The position numbers and the translations under genes are program-made. The notes beneath the pieces were generated by a model. It was not told where the DNA came from. It saw only the letters and a list, made by a program, of their open reading frames with translations, and searched no databases. A DNA stretch of 42,450 nucleotides from Clostridia bacterium (lineage in GTDB: Bacteria; Bacillota; Clostridia; Christensenellales; Aristaeellaceae): NCBI GenBank assembly GCA_017448975.1, contig JAFSKN010000053.1:1-42450 (forward strand), in the 5' to 3' direction. This document shows positions 9,939 through 33,331 of this stretch, piece after piece; within the stretch, counting starts at the first letter, position 1; every line of letters starts with the position of its first letter.

Positions 9939-10669
9939 CCCCGTGGCGGCTGTATATCGCCTCCCCGGACGCGGCCCGGCTGGAAAGGGCATTATCCCGC
10001 GACAGCCGGTTTTTGATCGTTGGCAGCGGCCAGGACAGGCAGGCCGTCCTGGAAGCGCTGCGCCTGTGCCCCGATCTGCTGATCCTGGACGCCGTGCTTT
10101 CCGGCATGGACGGCGGGGAGGCCCTTTCCCTGCTGGCACGCCTGCCCGCGCCGCCCCGAGCGGTTTATTTGGCGCGCACGGTCTTTTCCCCTGCCGAGCC
10201 CGCACCGGACGAAATCTGCCCCTATCCCTGTGAAGACTGGGTTTTGTTGGAAACCATATTGAAAGCGGCGGAACGTCCCCTGCCCGCCCTGGCCCTGCCT
10301 TGGGCGGAGCAGCGGCTTGCCCTTGCCGGAACGCTGCTGGAAAGGCTTTCCGTGCCGCCGCGCCTGAAAGGACGGAAGTATATGGGCGTCGCCGCCGCCG
10401 CCCTGGCCTGCTCCCCCGCCTTGGGAGCTTCCTACCGGGAAAGGCTTTATCCGTATGTGGCCGCGCAATGCGGAGCCACGCCCCAGGCTGTGGAAAAGGC
10501 CATCCGCACCGCCGTGGAAAGCGCCTGGCTCCAGGGCAGCCTGGAGGGTATCCAAGCCCTGTTCGGCCTGTCCGTGGACGCGGAGAGAGGCAAACCCACC
10601 AACGCGGAGTTTTTATCCATGCTGGCCCAGCATATCCGGGAGGAATTAGCCCGGCGGAAGCGGGATTGA
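9932..10669 (+). CDS. Spo0A-like response regulator with degenerate receiver
   Basis: 245 residues. The C-terminal half (~128-240) is a clear Spo0A DNA-binding domain: LSVPPRLKGRKYM, VEKAIRTAVESAW, SLEGIQALFGLSV and KPTNAEFLSML align with the recognition-helix region and C-terminus of Spo0A. The N-terminal ~115 residues resemble a receiver and keep the phospho-acceptor region (PDLLILDAVLSGMDG, Asp53). However, the acidic pocket is ASPD instead of ADDN, the switch Thr is Ala (VYLAR) and the Lys-Pro pair is Tyr-Pro (CPYPCED). Phosphorylation by the usual relay therefore seems doubtful. True spo0A normally follows spoIVB; here it overlaps the thrE pair. It is probably a paralogue that binds 0A-box-like DNA independently of phosphorylation, but a sole, diverged Spo0A of a non-sporulating lineage cannot be excluded. 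Confidence 0.85.
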   Translation: MLTPWRLYIASPDAARLERALSRDSRFLIVGSGQDRQAVLEALRLCPDLLILDAVLSGMDGGEALSLLARLPAPPRAVYLARTVFSPAEPAPDEICPYPCEDWVLLETILKAAERPLPALALPWAEQRLALAGTLLERLSVPPRLKGRKYMGVAAAALACSPALGASYRERLYPYVAAQCGATPQAVEKAIRTAVESAWLQGSLEGIQALFGLSVDAERGKPTNAEFLSMLAQHIREELARRKRD

Positions 10670-10723
10670 CGGGCGTATGGGTGCCGCGCTTCGCGGGATG
10701 CGCCCTTTCCCTGCGCGGCATGC

Positions 10724-10752
10724 AAAAAGAGGACTCCGCAAAGGAGTCCTCT
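10724..10752 (-). terminator. Intrinsic terminator of the candidate RNA (minus strand)
   Basis: AGAGGACTCC (10728-10737) and GGAGTCCTCT (10743-10752) form a perfect 10-bp stem with a 5-nt loop. On the minus strand it is followed by a run of five T (plus-strand A at 10724-10728). Plus-strand sequence after the stem is not T-rich, so it mainly ends minus-strand transcription, although it also lies 55 bp after the Spo0A-like gene. Confidence 0.75.
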
Positions 10753-11099
10753 GAAAATCTATCTTAAACCCGTGGATGGGGATCATTTTCAAAACGGAAC
10801 GGGACGATGGAGAGGGTCAACCGGTAAACAAGTGTTGGTATCAAATGTTCGTCCCGTTCCCTGAAATCCAATCAAATCTTTCGTCTCTGTCCTCATTGTT
10901 TGAATTGCAGCTGATCCATGATCCTTGGGCGGCGGTGGGAGACAGGGTTTTGATGTTTCGCGGCTTTTTCTTTTCTTTCTCTCGGTAATCCGTTCTTCTT
11001 GCCGCTTTTTGTTTCCTGCTTTTCTTCGCGATAATTCGTTCGCTCGTTGCTTATGTTCTGAGATTCAATTCTTCAGTCAAGCCCTTTTTCTTTGCAGGA

Positions 11100-11180
11100 T
11101 CACATTTCTCTTTTCCTGTCATATTCAATTGTCAGTAAGGATTGCGTTTCGTCTCCCACCGCATACGGCGCGTGATCCAT
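11100..11180 (-). CDS. Possible 26-residue small ORF inside the candidate RNA
   Basis: ATG at 11180 (minus strand) is preceded by AAGGAGG with 8 nt spacing and encodes MDHAPYAVGDETQSLLTIEY plus DRKREM before a TGA. The same frame is open back to an ATG at 11228, giving 42 residues. No family is recognised. Either the AGGAGG is coincidental within an A/G-rich structured RNA, or this is a real small protein or leader peptide. Confidence 0.3.
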   Translation of the reverse strand: MDHAPYAVGDETQSLLTIEYDRKREM

Positions 11181-11292
11181 GGGACTCTCCTCCTTCCCGG
11201 AACTGTCCGGTCGTTTTCTATCCGGCATGTTGACGGGTCTGCTGTTGACGGGTTCCTGCCGGTCGTTTCATTTCTTCTCTCGTTGCACCTAT

Positions 11293-11321
11293 ATATTAGC
11301 AGATCGTTTCGGGTTTGTCAA
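11293..11321 (-). promoter_or_regulatory. Strong promoter of the candidate RNA
   Basis: On the minus strand TTGACA (11316-11321) and TAATAT (11293-11298) are 17 bp apart, with A/T-rich sequence upstream like an UP element. It lies downstream of the terminator of the ATP-grasp gene, so it drives a separate transcript starting near 11286. Confidence 0.75.
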
Positions 11322-11381
11322 CCTGTTTTTTTATTTTTTGGTAAATTTTTTTCCAGAAAGTCCTTGCGGCATTCCGGCGAC

Positions 11382-11421
11382 AAAAAAGCGCGCGGTGTCC
11401 GGTGGGGACGCATCGCGCGCT
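11382..11421 (-). terminator. Intrinsic terminator of the ATP-grasp gene
   Basis: AGCGCGCG (11387-11394) pairs with CGCGCGCT (11414-11421 region), and minus-strand transcripts then enter a six-T run (11382-11387). It sits 12 bp after the stop codon of the gene at 11433. Confidence 0.8.
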
Positions 11422-11432
11422 TCGCCTTTCAA

Positions 11433-12623
11433 TCACCAGCAGCGCACCGCGTCGGCGTAGAAGGCGTTCATTTCTTCTTCCGTGGGGAACACAGCCACAT
11501 ACATCTGATTGCCCATGGCGCCGGAGAGGGCGTCCGGGATGCGCTCCATCATGCGCATGTTGCCCGCGTATTTGGCGGCCAGCTCCTCGTGGCTCATCTG
11601 GAAGGGCTTGCCGTCCCGCCGCCCGGCGAAGGCGCAGAAGGAATGCTGGCCCTGGGGCTTGGTGGAGCAATTGAAAGCGATCATGTCCGCCCAGATCTTG
11701 TACACGTCGGTGGAGTTGGCGTAGTTCATCATATCGGGAGAGAAGCCGCCGCAGGGGCGCATGTTCACCTCCAGGGCCACCACGTCGCCCTTTTTGCCCA
11801 TGTGCTGATCCTGGGTGAGGCGGAAAAACTCGAAATGCACGAACCGGCTCTTGACCCCGAAGCTCTTTACCGTGGCCCGGCCCGCGGCGCGCACGTCCTC
11901 CGCCAGATCCTTGACGATATAATAGATGGAATTATCGTTGTTGTTCACGATGTCCATGATGGACATGGGCGTTACGTTGCCGGTTTCAAACACGGGATTG
12001 CCGTTGCTGTCGATGATGGCGTCGTAGCTGTTCACTTCGGCGGCCACGAATTCTTCCATGATGAAGCGGACGTTCTGGTCCCGCTCGTTCAGGAACGCCC
12101 ACAGCTCCCCGTCGTTATCCAGCTTGTAGGTATGCGAGGCGCCCACGCCGTTGTCCGGCTTCACGATCACGGGATAATGCACCTGATCGATGAACGCCTT
12201 GCAGCCGTCGAAATTGTCCACGATGTGGTAGCGGGCGGTGCGCACCCCGGCGGCCTGGTAGTATTCCTTCATACCGCTCTTAAATTTTATCCGCCCCAAA
12301 TCCGAAACCTGCCAGCCGCTTTGGATGTTGAAATCCGTGCGCAGCATGGCGTCCCGTTCCAGCCAGTATTCGTTGTTGCTTTCCAGCCAGTCGATGCGGC
12401 CGTACTTGCTGATGAACCAGGCCACGGCGCGGTACACTTCATCGTAGTTTTCCAGGGAGGATACCTTATAGTATTCATCCAGACTGTTCACCAATTCGCT
12501 CATGAGATCGCCGTAGGGCTGATCGCCGATGCCCAGCACCCGCAGGCCGTTGTTTTTCAGCTCCCGGCAGAATTTCCAGTAGTTGGTGGGGAAGTTGGGG
12601 GAGATAAAAATGAAATTTTGCAT
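11433..12623 (-). CDS. ATP-grasp domain enzyme of unknown substrate
   Basis: 396 residues. The N-terminal ~100 residues (MQNFIFISPNFPTNYWKFCR) form a pre-ATP-grasp Rossmann-like region. The ATP-grasp fold (~105-310) shows YPVIVKPDNGVGASHTYKL (nucleotide-binding loop), FIMEEFV and the metal site VALEVNMRPCGGF. Such enzymes join a carboxylate to an amine or thiol through an acyl-phosphate; closest by eye are carbamoyl-phosphate-synthase-like and dipeptide-ligase-like proteins, but the substrate cannot be told. The start is supported by AAAGGAA eight bases upstream. Genes upstream on the same strand are a C_GCAxxG_C_C protein (131 bp away) and a cyclase-family hydrolase; whether they form one operon is uncertain. 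Confidence 0.8.
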   Translation of the reverse strand: MQNFIFISPNFPTNYWKFCRELKNNGLRVLGIGDQPYGDLMSELVNSLDEYYKVSSLENYDEVYRAVAWFISKYGRIDWLESNNEYWLERDAMLRTDFNIQSGWQVSDLGRIKFKSGMKEYYQAAGVRTARYHIVDNFDGCKAFIDQVHYPVIVKPDNGVGASHTYKLDNDGELWAFLNERDQNVRFIMEEFVAAEVNSYDAIIDSNGNPVFETGNVTPMSIMDIVNNNDNSIYYIVKDLAEDVRAAGRATVKSFGVKSRFVHFEFFRLTQDQHMGKKGDVVALEVNMRPCGGFSPDMMNYANSTDVYKIWADMIAFNCSTKPQGQHSFCAFAGRRDGKPFQMSHEELAAKYAGNMRMMERIPDALSGAMGNQMYVAVFPTEEEMNAFYADAVRCW

Positions 12624-12754: not shown

Positions 12755-13210
12755 TTAGCGCGCCTGCGTTTCCGCCAGGATTTCATCCAGGATCGCCGCC
12801 GCTTCTCCCACCAGCCGCAGGCAGGGGCGGCGGGCGTAAAAGTCCGGCGTTCTTTCTTCCGGCGTGCCGCCGGGGGCGACGGGCACGTTTTTCAACAGCT
12901 CCCGGCAAATGATGGTTTCGTTCTTTTCCCGGAAGCGCCGGGCAAATTCCCGCACCAGGGCGTAATGGGCTTTTTTCTGTTCCGGGTCCTTGGGATCGTC
13001 GTAGCCCCGCAGCATGCCCAAAGCCAGCAGCGCGCCGCTGACCGTGCCGCACACCTCCCGCAGCCTGCCCATGCCGCCGCCGAAGGAGGAAGAAAGCCGC
13101 GCCGCCGCGTTCAGCTCCATCCCGGTCAGATCCCGGAATGCGCAGAACACCGCCTGGGCGCAGTTATACCCTTCCAGAAACAGCCGTTCCGCTTCCTTTG
13201 CATGTTCCAT
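12755..13210 (-). CDS. C_GCAxxG_C_C family putative redox protein
   Basis: 151 residues. The name pattern is visible: a first cysteine in EGYNCAQAVF, the GCAxxG-like stretch SFGGGMGRLREVCGTVSGAL, then later cysteines in TIICRELL and RRPCLRLV. Members are small soluble proteins of anaerobes suspected to carry a metal or redox-active cysteine set; no reaction is established. The normal family length is 130-160 residues, so this is complete. The start at 13210 has AAGGAGAA upstream. It lies between the cyclase-family gene and the ATP-grasp gene, all on the minus strand. Confidence 0.85.
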   Translation of the reverse strand: MEHAKEAERLFLEGYNCAQAVFCAFRDLTGMELNAAARLSSSFGGGMGRLREVCGTVSGALLALGMLRGYDDPKDPEQKKAHYALVREFARRFREKNETIICRELLKNVPVAPGGTPEERTPDFYARRPCLRLVGEAAAILDEILAETQAR

Positions 13211-14034: not shown

Positions 14035-15054
14035 TTACTTGTTCATGGCCTGCTGCACAGCCACGGCCACGGCCACGGTCATGCCCACCATGGGGTTGTT
14101 GCCCGCGCCTAAGAAGCCCATCATTTCCACGTGGGCAGGCACGGAGGAAGAGCCTGCGAACTGCGCGTCGGAATGCATGCGGCCCATGGTGTCGGTCATG
14201 CCGTAGGAGGCGGGGCCGGCGGCCATGTTGTCGGGATGCAGGGTGCGGCCGGTGCCGCCGCCGGAAGCCACGGAGAAGTACTTCTTGCCGGCTTCCCAGC
14301 GTTCCTTCTTATAGGTGCCCGCCACGGGATGCTGGAAGCGGGTGGGGTTGGTGGAGTTGCCGGTGATGGAGATGTCCGCGCCTTCGTGCCACATGATGGC
14401 CACGCCCTCGCGCACGTCGTCCGCGCCGTAGCAGTTCACCTTCGCCCGGGGGCCGTCGGAGTAAGCGGTCTTGCTCACGATGGTCAGGGCGTGGTCTTCC
14501 TTCACATCGGCGGAGAGGTAATCGTACTTGGTCTGCACGTAGGTGAAGCCGTTGATGCGGCTGATGATCATGGCGGCGTCCTTGCCCAGGCCGTTCAGGA
14601 TGACGCGGAGGGGCTTTTTGCGCACCTTGTTGGCGTTCAGGGCGATCTTAATGGCGCCCTCGGCGGCGGCGAAGGATTCATGGCCGGCCAGGAAAGCGAA
14701 GCATTCGGTTTCCTCGTCCAGCAGCATGGCGCCTAAGTTGCCATGGCCGATGCCCACCTGGCGCTGGTCCGCCACGGAGCCGGGGATGCAGAAAGCCTGC
14801 AGGGCGGTGCCGATCCACTTGGCGGCCTCGGCGGCGTTCTTTGCGCCTTCCTTCATGGCGATGGCAGCGCCCAGTTCGTAGGCCCACTTCACATTTTCAA
14901 AGCAGATGGGCTGGGTGCTTTCCACGATGGAGTACGCGTCCACGCCCTTGCCGTTGGTGAAAGCCTTTACCTCGTCAAAGTTTTTGAAGCCGTATTTGTC
15001 CAGGACGGGCTGCAGCTGCGGCATGCGTCCTTCGTAATTTTCAAACAGAGCCAT
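14035..15054 (-). CDS. GGGtGRT family protein
   Basis: 339 residues. The family-defining signature is present as ASGGGTGRTLHPDNMAAGPA (residues ~268-287); other conserved blocks include ALQAFCIPGSVADQRQVGIG, HGNLGAMLLDEETECFAF and GNSTNPTRFQHP. The family (PF14057) is found in anaerobic bacteria and has no established function. It is 15 bp downstream of a NifU/IscU-like scaffold gene on the same strand, and the two are almost certainly co-transcribed, suggesting a role in iron-sulfur or another cofactor assembly (inference). The start has GAGGAGG upstream. No membrane segment or signal peptide is seen. Confidence 0.9.
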   Translation of the reverse strand: MALFENYEGRMPQLQPVLDKYGFKNFDEVKAFTNGKGVDAYSIVESTQPICFENVKWAYELGAAIAMKEGAKNAAEAAKWIGTALQAFCIPGSVADQRQVGIGHGNLGAMLLDEETECFAFLAGHESFAAAEGAIKIALNANKVRKKPLRVILNGLGKDAAMIISRINGFTYVQTKYDYLSADVKEDHALTIVSKTAYSDGPRAKVNCYGADDVREGVAIMWHEGADISITGNSTNPTRFQHPVAGTYKKERWEAGKKYFSVASGGGTGRTLHPDNMAAGPASYGMTDTMGRMHSDAQFAGSSSVPAHVEMMGFLGAGNNPMVGMTVAVAVAVQQAMNK

Positions 15055-15069
15055 TTGCTGCGCCTCCTC

Positions 15070-15771
15070 TTATTCTTTCCGCGGGTCGATCCACTTGACC
15101 GCGCCGTCTTCCGCCTTAAAGCGTCCATAGGTGCCCAGGTTCTTTTCGTAGGCTTCCGCCGCGGGCACGCCCTTCTTGATGGCGTCCATCATCTTGCCCA
15201 CGCTCAGGAACTGATAGCCGCACACCTGATCGTCTTTATCGAGGGCCATCTTGACCACGTAGCCTTCGGTCATTTCCAGGTAGCGGGTGCCCTTGGCCTT
15301 GGTGCCGTACATGGTGCCCACCATGGAGCGCAGGCCCTTGCCTAAGTCTTCCAGACCGGCGCCCACGCGCAGGCCGTCGTCAGAGAAAGCGGACTGGGTG
15401 CGGCCGTACACGATCTGCAGGAACAGTTCCCGCATGGCGGTGTTGATGGCGTCGCACACCAGGTCGGTATTCAGGGCTTCTAAGATGGTTTTGCCGGGCA
15501 GGATCTCGCTGGCCATAGCGGCGGAGTGGGTCATGCCGGAGCAGCCGATGGTTTCCACCAGCGCTTCTTCGATCACGCCGTTCTTCACGTTCAGGCTCAG
15601 CTTGCAGGCGCCCTGCTGGGGAGCGCACCAGCCGATGCCGTGGGTATAACCGGAGATGTCCTTGATTTCCTTGGCCTGAATCCATTTTCCTTCTTCAGGG
15701 ATCGGAGCGGGGCCATGGTTCGGGCCTTTTGCAACACAAACCATGTCTTCAACTTCCTTCGTGTATTGCAT
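15070..15771 (-). CDS. NifU/IscU-like iron-sulfur cluster assembly scaffold
   Basis: 233 residues, longer than IscU (~130). Conserved scaffold features are present: WCAPQQGACKLSLNVKNGVI, then ETIGCSGMTHSAAMASEILPG, and GKTILEALN, with cysteines at the ligand positions. It has a C-terminal extension of ~80 residues (YLEMTEGYVVKMALDKDDQV onward) not found in IscU. It probably builds or carries a cluster for transfer to an apo-protein, perhaps with the GGGtGRT partner encoded next. The start at 15771 follows AGGAGGAGAA. Its promoter faces away from rubrerythrin, so the two cofactor-related genes share a 222-bp divergent region. Confidence 0.85.
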   Translation of the reverse strand: MQYTKEVEDMVCVAKGPNHGPAPIPEEGKWIQAKEIKDISGYTHGIGWCAPQQGACKLSLNVKNGVIEEALVETIGCSGMTHSAAMASEILPGKTILEALNTDLVCDAINTAMRELFLQIVYGRTQSAFSDDGLRVGAGLEDLGKGLRSMVGTMYGTKAKGTRYLEMTEGYVVKMALDKDDQVCGYQFLSVGKMMDAIKKGVPAAEAYEKNLGTYGRFKAEDGAVKWIDPRKE

Positions 15772-29331: not shown

Positions 29332-29754
29332 TTACGGTGATGGCGTGGAGCAATAAAAGAGAGCGCTCAGGGCCTCAAAGCGTTTTTCACCGATGCCGGG
29401 CACGTCCAGGAGCTCCTCCAGGAAGCGGAACCCGCCCCGCGCCTCCCGCATGTCGCATATTCTCTGAGCCAGGCCAGGGCCGACGCCCTCCGCCCGCTGC
29501 AGATCCTCCGCCGTGGCCCGGTTGATGTCGCTTTTTCCTTCCGGCTCCGCCGCTGTGCGGGATACCGGCTGTTCCTGATGCGTCACGCGGGCGAGGATCG
29601 GGGCACGGGTGCGCACGGTATCCACAGCCTGGAATAGAATAATGCCCGCGCAGCAAATACCCAGACACCACAAAAGCAGGCGCGCCGCGAATTGGCGGCG
29701 CGTCTTTCCTTGTTCATCGTTGCTTTGCGGCGATCCGCACCCGTGTACCCGCAT
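29332..29754 (-). CDS. ComEA-like helix-hairpin-helix protein
   Basis: 140 residues. One membrane segment near the N-terminus (FAARLLLWCLGICCAGIILF, ~22-41) and a C-terminal double helix-hairpin-helix DNA-binding domain (~75-136) with DINRATAEDLQRAEGVGPGL and LLDVPGIGEKRFEAL. This is the architecture of ComEA, which binds transforming DNA outside the membrane, although the soluble linker is short. No comEC is present in the window. Its start codon overlaps the stop of the large SdrD-like gene (TAATG), so it is translated from the same mRNA, an unusual pairing. Confidence 0.82.
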   Translation of the reverse strand: MRVHGCGSPQSNDEQGKTRRQFAARLLLWCLGICCAGIILFQAVDTVRTRAPILARVTHQEQPVSRTAAEPEGKSDINRATAEDLQRAEGVGPGLAQRICDMREARGGFRFLEELLDVPGIGEKRFEALSALFYCSTPSP

Positions 29755-32700
29755 TACCGTTCGGAGTAGGGCCGCCAGTCTTTGACGGGAATATCGTCCA
29801 TAGCGGCGGGATACACGTTCTTTTTGCGCAGCTGGAAGCCCAGGTCGCAGTGCAGGTTGGCTCTGCCGCTGGGCACGATCACGCCGGTCACCGTCACGGT
29901 CAGCTCATCGCTTTCGGGCAGGATGCTGCCCACCAGGGGGAATTCGGTCTGATGCACGGTGGCTTTCAGCTCTTTGTGCATGGTCACGCGCATTTCATAT
30001 TCGCCGGGGTACAGGTTATCAATGCCGTACCGTCCGTATGCATCGGTGACCGTGCTGACAACCAATTCGCCGTGCTGGTACAATTCGATCACGATGCCGG
30101 GCATGCTGGGCTCGTCCATATCCTGCATGCCGTTGCCGTTCACGTCCAGCCACGCCCGGTCGCCGATGCGGCCCATGGTGCCCACGCCGATATCGATGCC
30201 GCTCAGGTCGTCGCCCGTGACCACCTGGAAAGGAATAGCGATCACAGTGCCGTCCACCTGGCTTTGAATGAAGCTGTCCCGGGCGGCGGTGTCCTGGGCC
30301 CGGGCAAACAGGTAGCCCTCGGGCAGGGTGGCGGACAGGGCGTAGGTGCCGGGCAGCAGGCGGCCAAATACAAATTCGCCGCTCTCCCCGCTGGCCGCTT
30401 CGGCCAGGACTTCGCCCTCGCTGTTCAGCAGGGACACATTTACGCCGCCCATGCCTTCGCCGCCGCCTAAGCTCCACACCTGACCGGACACGGAGGCGTA
30501 GCGCATCACGGGCAGGGAAAGCCGCGCGTTCTGAAGAACGGCTGCGGGCAGGGCCGCGTCCTCATTGCCCCGGGTCACGTCGGGAACGTCCACCAAATCC
30601 TCGGTTTCGTCCAGGGCAATGCGCAGCTCGTACTGACCAGGGATCAGCCCTTCAAATATAAAACCGCCGTTTTCATCGGTTTCCACGGCCTCGATCTGCT
30701 CCCCGTCCTCCCACAGGGTCAGGGAACGGGATTCAGCGCCGTATTCCTCTTCGTCCATTTCGGCGGAAAGGTTGTCGTCATAATACACCACGCCGGAGAG
30801 GGAAACGGGGGTCACGGCCAAAATGTCGGTGTCCAGCCGTTTTTCTCCGAAGGACAGGGTGATGTCCGCCGACGCCTGCGCGCTGCGGGAACGGGCGATA
30901 ACGGAGCCTTCCTTTTCGCCGAAAGCCAGGCCCTGGGGCAGGGATACGGTGAGGGTATAGGTATCGGGCATCAGGCCGGTAAAGGCAAAGGAGCCGTCGG
31001 GGTTGGCGTGGATCCCGTAAGCAAAGTTTACCGTATGGCCCCGCAGGGAAAGCTGGGCGTTATACAGGCCCACGGCTTCCGGTGTGTCATGCAGGATCGT
31101 ACCGGCAATGGAGGCGGTCAAAATACCCCTGATCTCGGCGGCTTCAAAATGGGAGCCGCTTCCGCTGACGAAGGTTTCACCCACATATCGGGTGCCCTCC
31201 ACGCTGGGCTCGGTGAACACACCGTTGTCGGGCATTTGATAAGCCAGGGAATAGGCGCCGGGCAGGATGCCCTTGATGTAGAAGGAACCGTTTTCATCCG
31301 TTACGCCGTAGCTGTGATCGGAAACGGGCTGCCCGTCCGCGTCCAGCAGCGTCACCGTCACGCCGGCAATGCCGGTGTCTGTATCGGCATACCGGCTATC
31401 CACCAGCACGCGGCCCTCCGCCAGGCCCGCCTGGAACACGCTGCCGTTGAAGCTGGTTTTCTGTTCGCCGGGAGCCAGGACGACCGGACCCGCATCGCCG
31501 TATTCGGGGGTCTGCGCTTGGATGCGGTTGGCGTTATTCTCCTGATCCGCCGCATAGGGAGAAGCCACATAAGCGTCCCGCAGCAGGAAACGCACCGTGT
31601 ACGCGCCCGCGGAGAGGGGGTACAGGGTATACGCGCCGTTTTCGTCCGTGACCGCTTCCGCGGCGATTGACCCGTCCGCGTTCAGGGCCTGCACGGTAAA
31701 GCCGGAAAGGGGAACGCTGTCCTCCCGGTACAGGCCGGTATTGACCGCGTCCTCAAACAGCATGCCGCTGATGGCGGAAGCGGGGATCACCGCCGCTTCG
31801 TACCGGGCGGCGGGCTCCAGACCGTCCAGGGTGATTTCGGCCTGGGCGGCGCTTTGAATCCCGGAAATGGGGAACAGGCCCGCTTCGTCCGCCCGGAACA
31901 GCCAGCCCTCCGGCAGCTCGGCGGTGATTTGGGTTTCGCCGCCCCGCAGCGCGTTGAACACCGCTTCGCCGTTTTCATCCGTTTCGGTCTTTTCCACGGC
32001 TTTGCCGCCCTGGACCGCCGTTACCGCCGCGCCGGGCAGCACAGATTCGCCCTCGTCCCGCACGCCGTTCAGGTTCATATCGGCGTACAGCGTCAGGGTA
32101 AGGCCCGCCGCGGGCATGGCGCCCACAGCGCCCAAATCCGTGGTCACATCCACCGGTACATACACGTTCAGCGTGCCCATGTTCGCCGTATCAGACAGCT
32201 TGGACTGGCCGGGATAGGTAAAAATCATGCCTTCCGGCAGCTGGAACTGCACCAGATAATCGCCGGGCTGCAGGGTTTCAAAAATAAAACTGCCTTTTTC
32301 ATCGGGCTGAACGGTGCGCTTCACTTCAGTTTCAACGGAATGCAGGGTAATTTCCGCGCCCGTCAGGCCGGTTTCCTCGCTGTCCCATTTGCCGTTATAA
32401 TTGGCGTCGAACCAGGCCCTGCCCGCCAGGGAGCCTGTGCGCACCAAGCCCGCGCCCATGCCGATGGATGCCTTGGCCGCAAGGGTGAAGGGCTCGGAGA
32501 GGCCGATATTGTTTTCATCAGCAGCCAGACAGTTATAAAAGGTATTGATCTTCTGGCCCACAGACGCGGCCGTATAGTGCTCTGGGTAGGCGACGCGCAG
32601 CCGGTAGGTGCCCGCGGAAAGATCCCGCATCACGGCCTGGCCTTCCTTATCCGTAACGGCGGAGGCGACGGTGTAGGTTTCTCCCTCGTATTCATACAGC

Positions 32701-33230
32701 AGCTCCACCGGTATGCCGCGCACCAGCGGCTCGCTCTCCATGCGGCCGCCGTTGAGGTTCACATCCTCAAAGGCGATCACGCTCACCAGACACGCGGTTT
32801 TCGTCACGCCCGCGTTGACTTGGCGGCTCTCGTTTTCCCCCAGGGTAAACCAGGGCGTATAGCTCACGTTGCCCTGGGCGGGCAGCGCGGCGCTGTCCAG
32901 GCCGTGGAGGGTAAAGTGGTATTCCTTGGTCGCTTCCACCCGCAGCCGGTATTCCCCGGCCGCCAGCCCGTCAACCTGAAATTCGCCGGATTTGGACGCC
33001 GTGGTATTCTTTGCCACCTGGGCGTTTCCCTCGGCATCCTTCATTTCCAGAGTCACCTTCGCGCCGGACAAGCCGCCTTCGTTGGCCGCCATGACCCCGT
33101 CGGGGGTTTTGTCCACCCATACCACGCCGCTGACCTGACCCCCTTCGGCCATCGCCCCCTGAACGCCTAACACCAGGAGCAGCATTGCGAAAATCAGGAT
33201 CAACCCTACATGCTTTTGTATCGTGCGCAT
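29754..33230 (-). CDS. Large secreted adhesin-like protein with ten SdrD B-type repeats
   Basis: 1158 residues. Signal peptide MRTIQKHVGLILIFAMLLLV followed by a small-residue cleavage region (AMAEGG). The mature protein is a chain of about ten ~105-residue Cna-B/SdrD-B immunoglobulin-like repeats; each begins with a strand such as GRAWFDANYNGKWDSEE or GDRAWLDVNGNGMQDMDE (calcium-binding DxNxNG loop) and ends with a GxYxLR/V strand. These domains form stiff stalks on Gram-positive surfaces. No LPXTG motif, C-terminal membrane helix or S-layer domain was found, so anchoring is unclear; it may be released or held by another factor. GGAGG eight bases upstream fixes the start at 33230. Overlaps the ComEA-like gene by 1 bp. 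Confidence 0.88.
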   Translation of the reverse strand: MRTIQKHVGLILIFAMLLLVLGVQGAMAEGGQVSGVVWVDKTPDGVMAANEGGLSGAKVTLEMKDAEGNAQVAKNTTASKSGEFQVDGLAAGEYRLRVEATKEYHFTLHGLDSAALPAQGNVSYTPWFTLGENESRQVNAGVTKTACLVSVIAFEDVNLNGGRMESEPLVRGIPVELLYEYEGETYTVASAVTDKEGQAVMRDLSAGTYRLRVAYPEHYTAASVGQKINTFYNCLAADENNIGLSEPFTLAAKASIGMGAGLVRTGSLAGRAWFDANYNGKWDSEETGLTGAEITLHSVETEVKRTVQPDEKGSFIFETLQPGDYLVQFQLPEGMIFTYPGQSKLSDTANMGTLNVYVPVDVTTDLGAVGAMPAAGLTLTLYADMNLNGVRDEGESVLPGAAVTAVQGGKAVEKTETDENGEAVFNALRGGETQITAELPEGWLFRADEAGLFPISGIQSAAQAEITLDGLEPAARYEAAVIPASAISGMLFEDAVNTGLYREDSVPLSGFTVQALNADGSIAAEAVTDENGAYTLYPLSAGAYTVRFLLRDAYVASPYAADQENNANRIQAQTPEYGDAGPVVLAPGEQKTSFNGSVFQAGLAEGRVLVDSRYADTDTGIAGVTVTLLDADGQPVSDHSYGVTDENGSFYIKGILPGAYSLAYQMPDNGVFTEPSVEGTRYVGETFVSGSGSHFEAAEIRGILTASIAGTILHDTPEAVGLYNAQLSLRGHTVNFAYGIHANPDGSFAFTGLMPDTYTLTVSLPQGLAFGEKEGSVIARSRSAQASADITLSFGEKRLDTDILAVTPVSLSGVVYYDDNLSAEMDEEEYGAESRSLTLWEDGEQIEAVETDENGGFIFEGLIPGQYELRIALDETEDLVDVPDVTRGNEDAALPAAVLQNARLSLPVMRYASVSGQVWSLGGGEGMGGVNVSLLNSEGEVLAEAASGESGEFVFGRLLPGTYALSATLPEGYLFARAQDTAARDSFIQSQVDGTVIAIPFQVVTGDDLSGIDIGVGTMGRIGDRAWLDVNGNGMQDMDEPSMPGIVIELYQHGELVVSTVTDAYGRYGIDNLYPGEYEMRVTMHKELKATVHQTEFPLVGSILPESDELTVTVTGVIVPSGRANLHCDLGFQLRKKNVYPAAMDDIPVKDWRPYSER

Positions 33231-33302
33231 ACTGAAAGCCTCCGTCAAAACACGGCGCGCGTCTGCGCCGCGCCGCAGAAATTTCATACAATACCATAAT
33301 CC

Positions 33303-33331
33303 ATGATAATGCAAACTGCCGGGATTGTCAA
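33303..33331 (-). promoter_or_regulatory. Promoter of the SdrD-like/ComEA-like unit
   Basis: On the minus strand TTGACA (33326-33331) and TATCAT (33303-33308) are 17 bp apart, about 75 bp before the start codon. Confidence 0.7.

Follow-up and report, generated by a model that had tools for sequence, protein, structure and literature searches.

The RNA gene and its boundaries

The window analysed here is a 42,450-nt stretch of DNA from an uncultured Clostridia bacterium (contig JAFSKN010000053.1), and within it the flanking genes leave positions 10670-11432 free. This gap holds an RNA gene on the minus strand, at positions 10728-11286, whose start is placed about 7 nt after the -10 element of a promoter and whose end is that of an intrinsic terminator. 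The promoter (11293-11321, minus strand) came from a promoter scan and is of the sigma-70 type, TTGACA-17-TAATAT with an extended -10 TG; it is the one such site found, against a mean of 0.4 in shuffled sequence, and an equivalent TTGAC(A/T)-17-TAnnnT stands in front of all 21 homologues described below. The terminator (10728-10752, minus strand) is a 10-bp stem followed by a T-run. Because the scan returned 3 terminator-like sites in positions 10500-11500 versus a shuffle mean of 1.7, the terminator scan alone is weak evidence. Among relatives the hairpin is kept and its sequence varies, a clear hairpin with T-run ends 20 of the 21 homologues, and across 15 homologues the cognate terminator arms pair at -15.5 kcal/mol versus -10.4 kcal/mol for swapped arms, a difference that none of 20,000 permutations equalled. 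The exception is L016, where a transposase-like ORF, recognised by eye, lies tens of bases past the end of the RNA (L016:1-120, genome G009), and where it looks as if an insertion sits in place of the usual terminator.

Both boundary signals had been proposed in a preliminary description of the same DNA, and both could be located, as could two further features named there. The upstream ATP-grasp gene was said to end in a terminator of its own, and a terminator-like hairpin is visible by eye at its end (GCGCGC at 11388-11393 with 11415-11420, and a T-run at 11382-11387), with a loop that exceeds the limit of the terminator scan. The transcribed strand was said to be purine-rich, and the minus strand of the region is 59.7% purine. 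Just 5' of the terminator lies a conserved 3' element, GATCCC..GGGTT (10757-10785, minus strand), recognised from invariant alignment columns. The homologues are 444-576 nt long (n=21).

An additional element, GGAAA..TTNCCAAA (11337-11354, minus strand), lies upstream of the promoter. A pattern search of the 29 genomes of the genus gave 11 hits in 10 genomes, 10 of them at the RNA, and the reversed control gave 0; the first base of the element is 39 nt from the end of TTGACA in all 10 RNA-linked hits. Homologues of subgroup B carry a palindrome like TTGATAAWTTTATCAA in its place. The sole other place in the 29 genomes where the pattern precedes TTGACA is L155 (G012:C2:23563-23603), and the ORF behind that copy begins, as judged by eye, like a secreted protein.

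A family of related RNAs

The preliminary description had put forward a new structured RNA, and homologue searches with covariance models now yield a family of 21 members. The RNA is single-copy in its own genome. A DNA search of the 29 genus genomes matched 18 at E <= 0.001; besides the genome's own copy, three genomes align along almost the entire RNA at 86-90% and most others through conserved blocks, while G002, which matched through AT-rich upstream sequence only, was dropped. Two covariance models were built, R1 for the 5' half (alignment A1, 19 of the 21 homologues) and R2 for the 3' half (alignment A3, 15 of the 21, six of subgroups C and D being omitted). At E <= 0.01, R1 had matches in 30 of the 308 genomes of the family, and after the loci had been read 21 homologues were accepted, one match per genome, from 20 of the 29 genus genomes and from G173, which belongs to another genus of the same family. 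R2 matched 16 of the 308, all among the 21 accepted and all adjoining R1 matches. One of these R2 matches is a subgroup-C locus outside its training set, L014 (G019), at E 3.8e-5 and, in a second search, 3.5e-7; R2 also scores L015, L091 and L017 (E 1.1e-4 to 0.0021) and is weak on two homologues, giving L016 an E of 0.45 and leaving L113 unlisted.

The distribution is narrow. Across the order, the only genome with an R1 match at E <= 1e-4 is that of origin (1 of 396), and 9 of the 29 genus genomes, five of them at least 91% complete, lack an accepted member. Nine R1 matches with E values of 1.8e-5 to 0.0085 were dropped (G006, G011, G032, G040, G169, G172, G194, G212 and G284): seven of these loci were read, three proving tuf-like and the rest being without features of the RNA by eye; a profile of the 21 homologues recovered at most the ribosome-site block in L115, L116, L120 and L121 and nothing in the other five; and R2 had no match in any of the nine genomes. 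A search of GTDB contigs with the core pattern extended by four bases returned 16 contigs, labelled Clostridia, Clostridiales or Christensenellaceae bacterium, and the animal, named for seven, is a ruminant in each case; the host genus is found mostly in ruminants. The core pattern occurred in 0 viral contigs, and blastn of the RNA gave no match in phages or plasmids.

As far as comparison of sequences can tell, the RNA of 10728-11286 is an RNA family absent from Rfam 15. No Rfam 15 family, including OLE, ROOL, GOLLD and raiA, matched the window or 17 loci at its gathering score, in line with the earlier failure to recognise a known class, and with the threshold relaxed to E 5, three members hit unrelated families and none of ROOL, GOLLD and OLE. 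Among titles and the opening parts of abstracts, no publication describing the RNA was found, nor any that combines Christensenellales with small RNA; a survey of human-microbiome RNAs lists 3161 candidates of 27-219 bp (PMC8040213).

Several more specific identities were tried and set aside. The core GAGGAGAGTCC resembles the P4 strand of RNase P, but the locus has no RF00010 match, and the genome has a normal RNase P RNA elsewhere, at G000:C42; RF00010 matches 23 of the 29 genus genomes. Nor is the RNA a 6S RNA, since there is no RF00013 match here and 23 of the 29 genus genomes have one elsewhere; the draft genome of origin itself gave no RF00013 match. A CsrA sponge and an Hfq-dependent sRNA were likewise rejected, CsrA being found by profile search in 0 of the 29 genus drafts (a control found it in 3 of 14 known genomes) and Hfq in none of the 29, so that the usual partners of RNA regulation seem to be missing from the genus. 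ROOL and GOLLD genes belong to prophages or phages and often have tRNA islands nearby; no tRNA genes lie within the window.

Covariation and the fold of the RNA

The fold includes a long-range stem, a perfect 12-bp pair between the 5' arm GCGGTGGGAGAC (11151-11162, minus strand) and a 3' arm at 10932-10943, with 207 nt between the arms. A second perfect 12-bp pair forms a hairpin in the 3' domain from GGAACGGGACGA (10849-10860, minus strand) and 10796-10807, with 41 nt between. The preliminary description had noted two such pairs, one local and one long-range, and had judged even one to be rare by chance, which proved correct: outside the terminator at least one was seen in 3 of 1000 dinucleotide shuffles and two in 1 of 1000.

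The absence of covariation in homologues had been named as a finding that would speak against a structured RNA. Covariation is present: the long-range pairing is found in all 21 homologues and carries compensatory changes. It comprises 8-13 contiguous pairs in 20 of the 21 in the register set by script, and 10 bp in L017; at position 5 the pair is UA, CG or GC depending on the homologue. On alignment A5, 86.0% of cells are paired in the long-range stem versus 77.6% in shuffles, 28 cells show two-sided changes versus 12.4, and the covariation score is 0.273 versus 0.143, none of 500 shuffles reaching any of these values; two-sided changes occur in 7 of the 12 pairs, which 6 of 500 shuffles reach. 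These shuffle statistics, like those for the other helices, ignore relatedness among the homologues, and the A5 rows of L017, L091 and L113, which are out of register for the stem, were kept and count against it. When the partner arm is slid by 1-3 columns the score falls to 0.026-0.138. Cognate arms also pair better than swapped ones in 15 of the 19 homologues then known, with 196 of 20,000 permutations as good, a weaker result that is attributed to all arms being GC-rich and alike. The predicted probability of the stem in L114 is 0.07, although its arms pair perfectly.

Within and around the long-range stem are further helices. A small hairpin, CCGGA-CAGT-TCCGG (11197-11210, minus strand), lies just upstream of the ribosome site described below, with 76.2% of cells paired and two-sided change in 2 of 3 pairs. 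The middle domain contains a stem of CCTGC (11094-11098, minus strand) with GCAGG (11015-11019), recognised by the arm-swap test, in which the cognate arms of 15 homologues gave -11.5 versus -8.6 kcal/mol when swapped (0 of 20,000 permutations), and an apical hairpin, GCTT..AAGC (11049-11082, minus strand), with 93.8% of cells paired and two-sided changes in 2 of 4 pairs. The small 5' hairpin and the apical hairpin tested together gave 8 two-sided cells versus 2.0 in shuffles (0 of 500). The 3' hairpin, in which AU is exchanged for GC at two positions, gave 13 on A3 versus 4.9 (0 of 500); the number of its pairs with two-sided change was equalled by 92 of 500 shuffles. Counts of pair types were no better than in shuffles (500 of 500 as good on A3, 334 of 500 on A5). 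In L007 and L008 a unit of about 35 nt around TTCTTTCAGGAACGGAGCGCAAAAAA is repeated in tandem in the 3' domain, by eye in about 3 and 2 copies, and lengthens the 3' hairpin region in both genomes.

Less favourable to the fold, de novo consensus folding gave little for either half, 13 pairs in A1 and 3 in A2, with no covariation term in the A2 result. The minimum free energy of the window RNA has a z of -2.56, which 1 of 100 shuffles equalled or bettered, and energies computed without the last 40 nt are only moderately below those of shuffles, with a mean z of -1.57 in 12 of the 21 homologues, several being near zero. The RNA seems to fold through base pairs that change together in evolution. 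Comparison among the homologues establishes an independent single-copy gene whose predicted fold has a multi-hairpin domain, closed by a stem of 8-13 bp, and a 3' domain that precedes the terminator.

A short ORF of conserved length

The most conserved block of the RNA, AAGGAGGMGAKTCCCATGG, is a Shine-Dalgarno site with a start codon. The Shine-Dalgarno sequence AAGGAGG (11189-11195, minus strand), of which AGGAGG is invariant in all 21 homologues, as is the presence of the core, is followed by an ATG at 11180 that opens a mini-ORF of 26 codons and a TGA stop (11100-11180, minus strand), a feature absent from the preliminary description. An ATG with an open frame of 17-26 codons is found in 21 of 21 homologues, its length having a standard deviation of 2.4 versus 18.8 and 25.8 for the +1 and +2 frames. 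The chance of a first stop within 17-26 codons is 0.11-0.23 for each of 14 representatives of the 21, a range picked after the data had been seen and lineages that are not fully independent. The stop is TGA in 14 homologues, TAA in 7 and never TAG. At 3-16 nt beyond it, 18 of the 21 have a GGC[T/C] that belongs to the middle hairpin region, and in subgroup B the final codons of the mini-ORF overlap with the outer arm of the middle stem.

It is the frame, rather than the product, that is kept. Among all pairs of the four closest ORFs, 9 of 36 changed codons are synonymous versus the 0.20 expected for random changes, and third positions changed 22 times versus 14 and 12 for first and second positions. 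The motif CAATTGAATAT is retained as nucleotides, but the frame in which it is read differs between subgroups A and B. Together with the lack of a clear synonymous excess, this makes the ORF look more conserved than the peptide, constraint on which appears to be weak at most. First residues of the form M[DAGN][QH] are shared by the homologues. Mean hydropathy ranges from -2.02 to 0.19 (n=21) and is negative in 18 of the 21, so that the peptides are mostly hydrophilic; a type I toxin mRNA was rejected, the peptides not being hydrophobic. A conserved protein frame across the region had also been named as speaking against the RNA; none spans it, the only frame being the mini-ORF, 81 nt including its stop, with little or no amino-acid constraint. 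To the earlier reading of a structured RNA it can thus be added that the RNA is probably also translated.

The core block is not peculiar to the RNA. Near-identical start regions precede, by eye, tuf-like and gapA-like ORFs of relatives, which makes the AAGGAGGMGAKTCCCATGG block a strong translation start of the lineage, and when one mismatch is allowed the core pattern occurs in 111 of 308 family genomes (0 of 308 for the reversed control). Throughout the family, AAGGAGGAGATTCCCATGG acts as a strong start of translation typical of the lineage. As a marker of the RNA family the core pattern was therefore rejected as misleading, since it also precedes ordinary genes, those gapA- and tuf-like ORFs included, and searches with the block alone return such genes. 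This is a trap for RNA discovery, in which the most conserved block of a candidate is a translation start of ordinary genes too. Occlusion of the ribosome site was also considered and rejected: it has no conserved pairing partner, and the mean unpaired probability of the Shine-Dalgarno sequence is 0.48 versus 0.49 for the whole RNA. By eye, the core can also pair with CTCTCC in subgroup A, but subgroup B does not retain this pairing. At L086:560-900 (G003:C163) a promoter-like sequence and the same ribosome site precede a 3-codon ORF (MQM) and then an ORF with its own ribosome site, by eye a leader-like arrangement.

Genomic neighbours

Neighbouring genes were compared for 19 of the 21 loci, and on the downstream side for 18, without L083, L113 and L114. 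Upstream of the RNA, subgroup A (four loci) has the ATP-grasp gene and subgroup B (seven loci) another shared region. A DUF2804 gene lies just upstream in L021 and in the subgroup-C loci L014 and L016. L091 has in common with L016 a gene region situated, in the latter, on the far side of DUF2804, so that some loci are related by gain or loss. The idea of an ancestral site downstream of DUF2804 was dropped, as the 21-homologue profile finds nothing at E <= 10 in 20 further genomes, a set in which L129 and L131 offer only 286 and 353 nt before contig ends and L141 has no recognisable DUF2804 end. The C-terminal end of DUF2804 also lies upstream of L090 (L090:1000-2100, G001:C33), where a promoter, a family-like start AAAGCCAGATA and a core AAGGAGGAGATTCCGATGG are followed by a purine-rich stretch, a 5-codon ORF (MVSEC) and a terminator-like end. 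With so short an ORF, only 9.2 bits with R1 and no match to the 21-homologue profile, L090 was left uncounted; it is possibly a highly diverged copy.

Downstream sequence is related only among four subgroup-B loci, in one subgroup-A pair and in a weak 256-nt match between L081 and L082, and no conserved same-strand downstream gene was found among the 18 loci compared. The downstream gene in the window, which encodes a Spo0A_C-domain protein, is convergent, on the other strand. Since downstream sequence is mostly unrelated and the window neighbour is convergent, a role in cis is unlikely.

Elsewhere in the window are a gene for a GGGtGRT protein (14035-15771, minus strand), whose neighbour matches NifU_N slightly below the Pfam cut-off; near it, at 12755-13210, a C_GCAxxG_C_C redox protein; and, at 29754-33314 on the minus strand, a 1186-aa ORF in which SdrD B-like and carboxypeptidase-regulatory-like domains recur, a candidate large surface protein.

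A translation-gated RNA and its alternatives

Comparison of the homologues demonstrates a gene unit, its conservation, covariation within it and constraint on its ORF, and from these we infer transcription, translation, gating of the fold by translation, and action in trans. The reading we prefer, at a probability of about one half, is that of a trans-acting, RNAIII-like structured RNA whose fold would be gated by translation of the mini-ORF. Its starting point is the phase of the long-range stem, the first nucleotide of which is at +19 of the mini-ORF in 15 of the 21 homologues, the window included, at +18 in 4 and at +22 in 2. An initiating bacterial ribosome covers its mRNA to about +15/+16. 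The stem thus begins just ahead of such a ribosome, within codons 7-11, and elongation would have to open it.

An initiating ribosome on the mini-ORF would accordingly end just short of the stem at +18/+19, elongation through codons 7-11 would melt the stem, and the elongating ribosome would come to its stop at the middle hairpin or shortly in front of it. Between ribosomes, or upon failed initiation, the stem could re-form, so that the RNA would alternate between an open, translated fold and a closed, untranslated one, and one of the two might pair with or sequester a target, much as in RNAIII, with its 5' mini-ORF and regulatory body. The act of translation would matter more than the peptide, and action in trans is suggested because the neighbours differ between subgroups.

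The alternative that fares best is a structural non-coding RNA of the OLE or ROOL kind, a scaffold or homo-oligomer in which the ribosome site and mini-ORF would stabilise the RNA or dock a ribosome and no switch would exist. Such an RNA could well show a promoter and terminator of its own, long-range pairs that covary, a narrow distribution and a single match per genome, and the reading is possible, if unlikely; its homologues, however, are largely variable linker, the tested helices hold a minority of positions, and a stop kept at 17-26 codons is unexpected for a docking site alone. A doubtful further idea is that the RNA is a free-standing sensor of translation state, with a meaningless peptide, a start-codon-phased stem opened by ribosome traffic, and an RNA that would then signal, or act upon, the cell's translational state in trans.

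We consider it improbable that the locus is an ordinary mRNA for a fast-evolving peptide of 17-26 residues with a long structured 3' UTR. The strong ribosome site, the ATG and the ORF length kept in 21 of 21 homologues are what an mRNA would have, the shared M[DAGN][QH] start and the slight excess of third-position changes in the closest four ORFs point the same way, but no clear synonymous excess is seen, subgroups A and B read CAATTGAATAT in different frames, most of the peptides are hydrophilic, and some 270-390 nt past the stop are partly conserved and covarying. Very improbable is a cis-acting leader or attenuator, in which mini-ORF translation would control whether transcription reads through into the next gene. 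Attenuators do have this layout, with a mini-ORF, a stem and a terminator in that order, and ilvB-II offers a precedent of a riboswitch candidate with features of a translated leader (PMC10272879); yet the next gene in the window lies on the opposite strand and points towards the RNA, the 18 loci compared have mostly unrelated sequence downstream, the peptides have no single-amino-acid run fit for an attenuator, and some 350 nt separate the stop from the terminator in the window. That the arrangement arose by chance, or that the locus is intergenic sequence in decay, would agree with folding energies that are not extreme, but is scarcely credible given the rarity of a 12-bp pair in shuffles (3 of 1000), the covariation, and a family with members in 20 of the 29 genus genomes and one in a second genus.

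The RNA adds to the large structured RNAs a family from uncultured Clostridia that lies outside Rfam 15. Its conserved ORF with little or no conservation of the peptide, and a stem placed at the ribosome front, would allow control of a fold by translation only to be tested.

Comparison with known systems

Among large bacterial RNAs, ROOL, GOLLD and OLE resemble the present RNA in their extensive covarying folds and poorly understood function, and the env-120 ROOL from cow rumen is of comparable kind at 659 nt (PMC12286853). The RNA described here differs in lacking a match to these families in Rfam and in carrying a translated-looking ORF. A translated leader offers another comparison: ilvB-II, first a riboswitch candidate, was then found to have features of one (PMC10272879), but it lies upstream of ilvB and its peptides are rich in branched-chain residues, whereas the present RNA has neither a conserved downstream gene nor an obvious residue bias.

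The closest likeness is to regulatory RNAs that also carry a short ORF. RNAIII of Staphylococcus aureus is 514 nt long and combines a 26-codon ORF at its 5' side with a longer regulatory body (PMC4683094), and the present RNA shares with it a similar size and the order of mini-ORF and body; in RNAIII the pairing region overlaps the coding sequence (PMC4683094). At the level of sequence, the features of a dual-function RNA of this kind are found here, namely a free-standing unit and a constrained short ORF with a ribosome site; the small amount of amino-acid constraint speaks to some degree against a function of the peptide itself. RNAIII is from another lineage and bears no sequence relation to the present RNA, which has no Rfam match, and it makes a secreted functional hemolysin, whereas the peptide here is little or not conserved and mostly hydrophilic. 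VcdRP, with a short ORF of 29 aa (PMC8672173), and SgrS and SR1, with short ORFs of 43 and 39 aa (PMC4683094), are likewise regulatory RNAs carrying a short ORF. SgrT and SR1P have functions of their own, whereas here it is mainly the start, length and stop of the ORF that are constrained, and what sets the present RNA apart from VcdRP, SgrS and SR1 is a long-range stem phased on the start codon.
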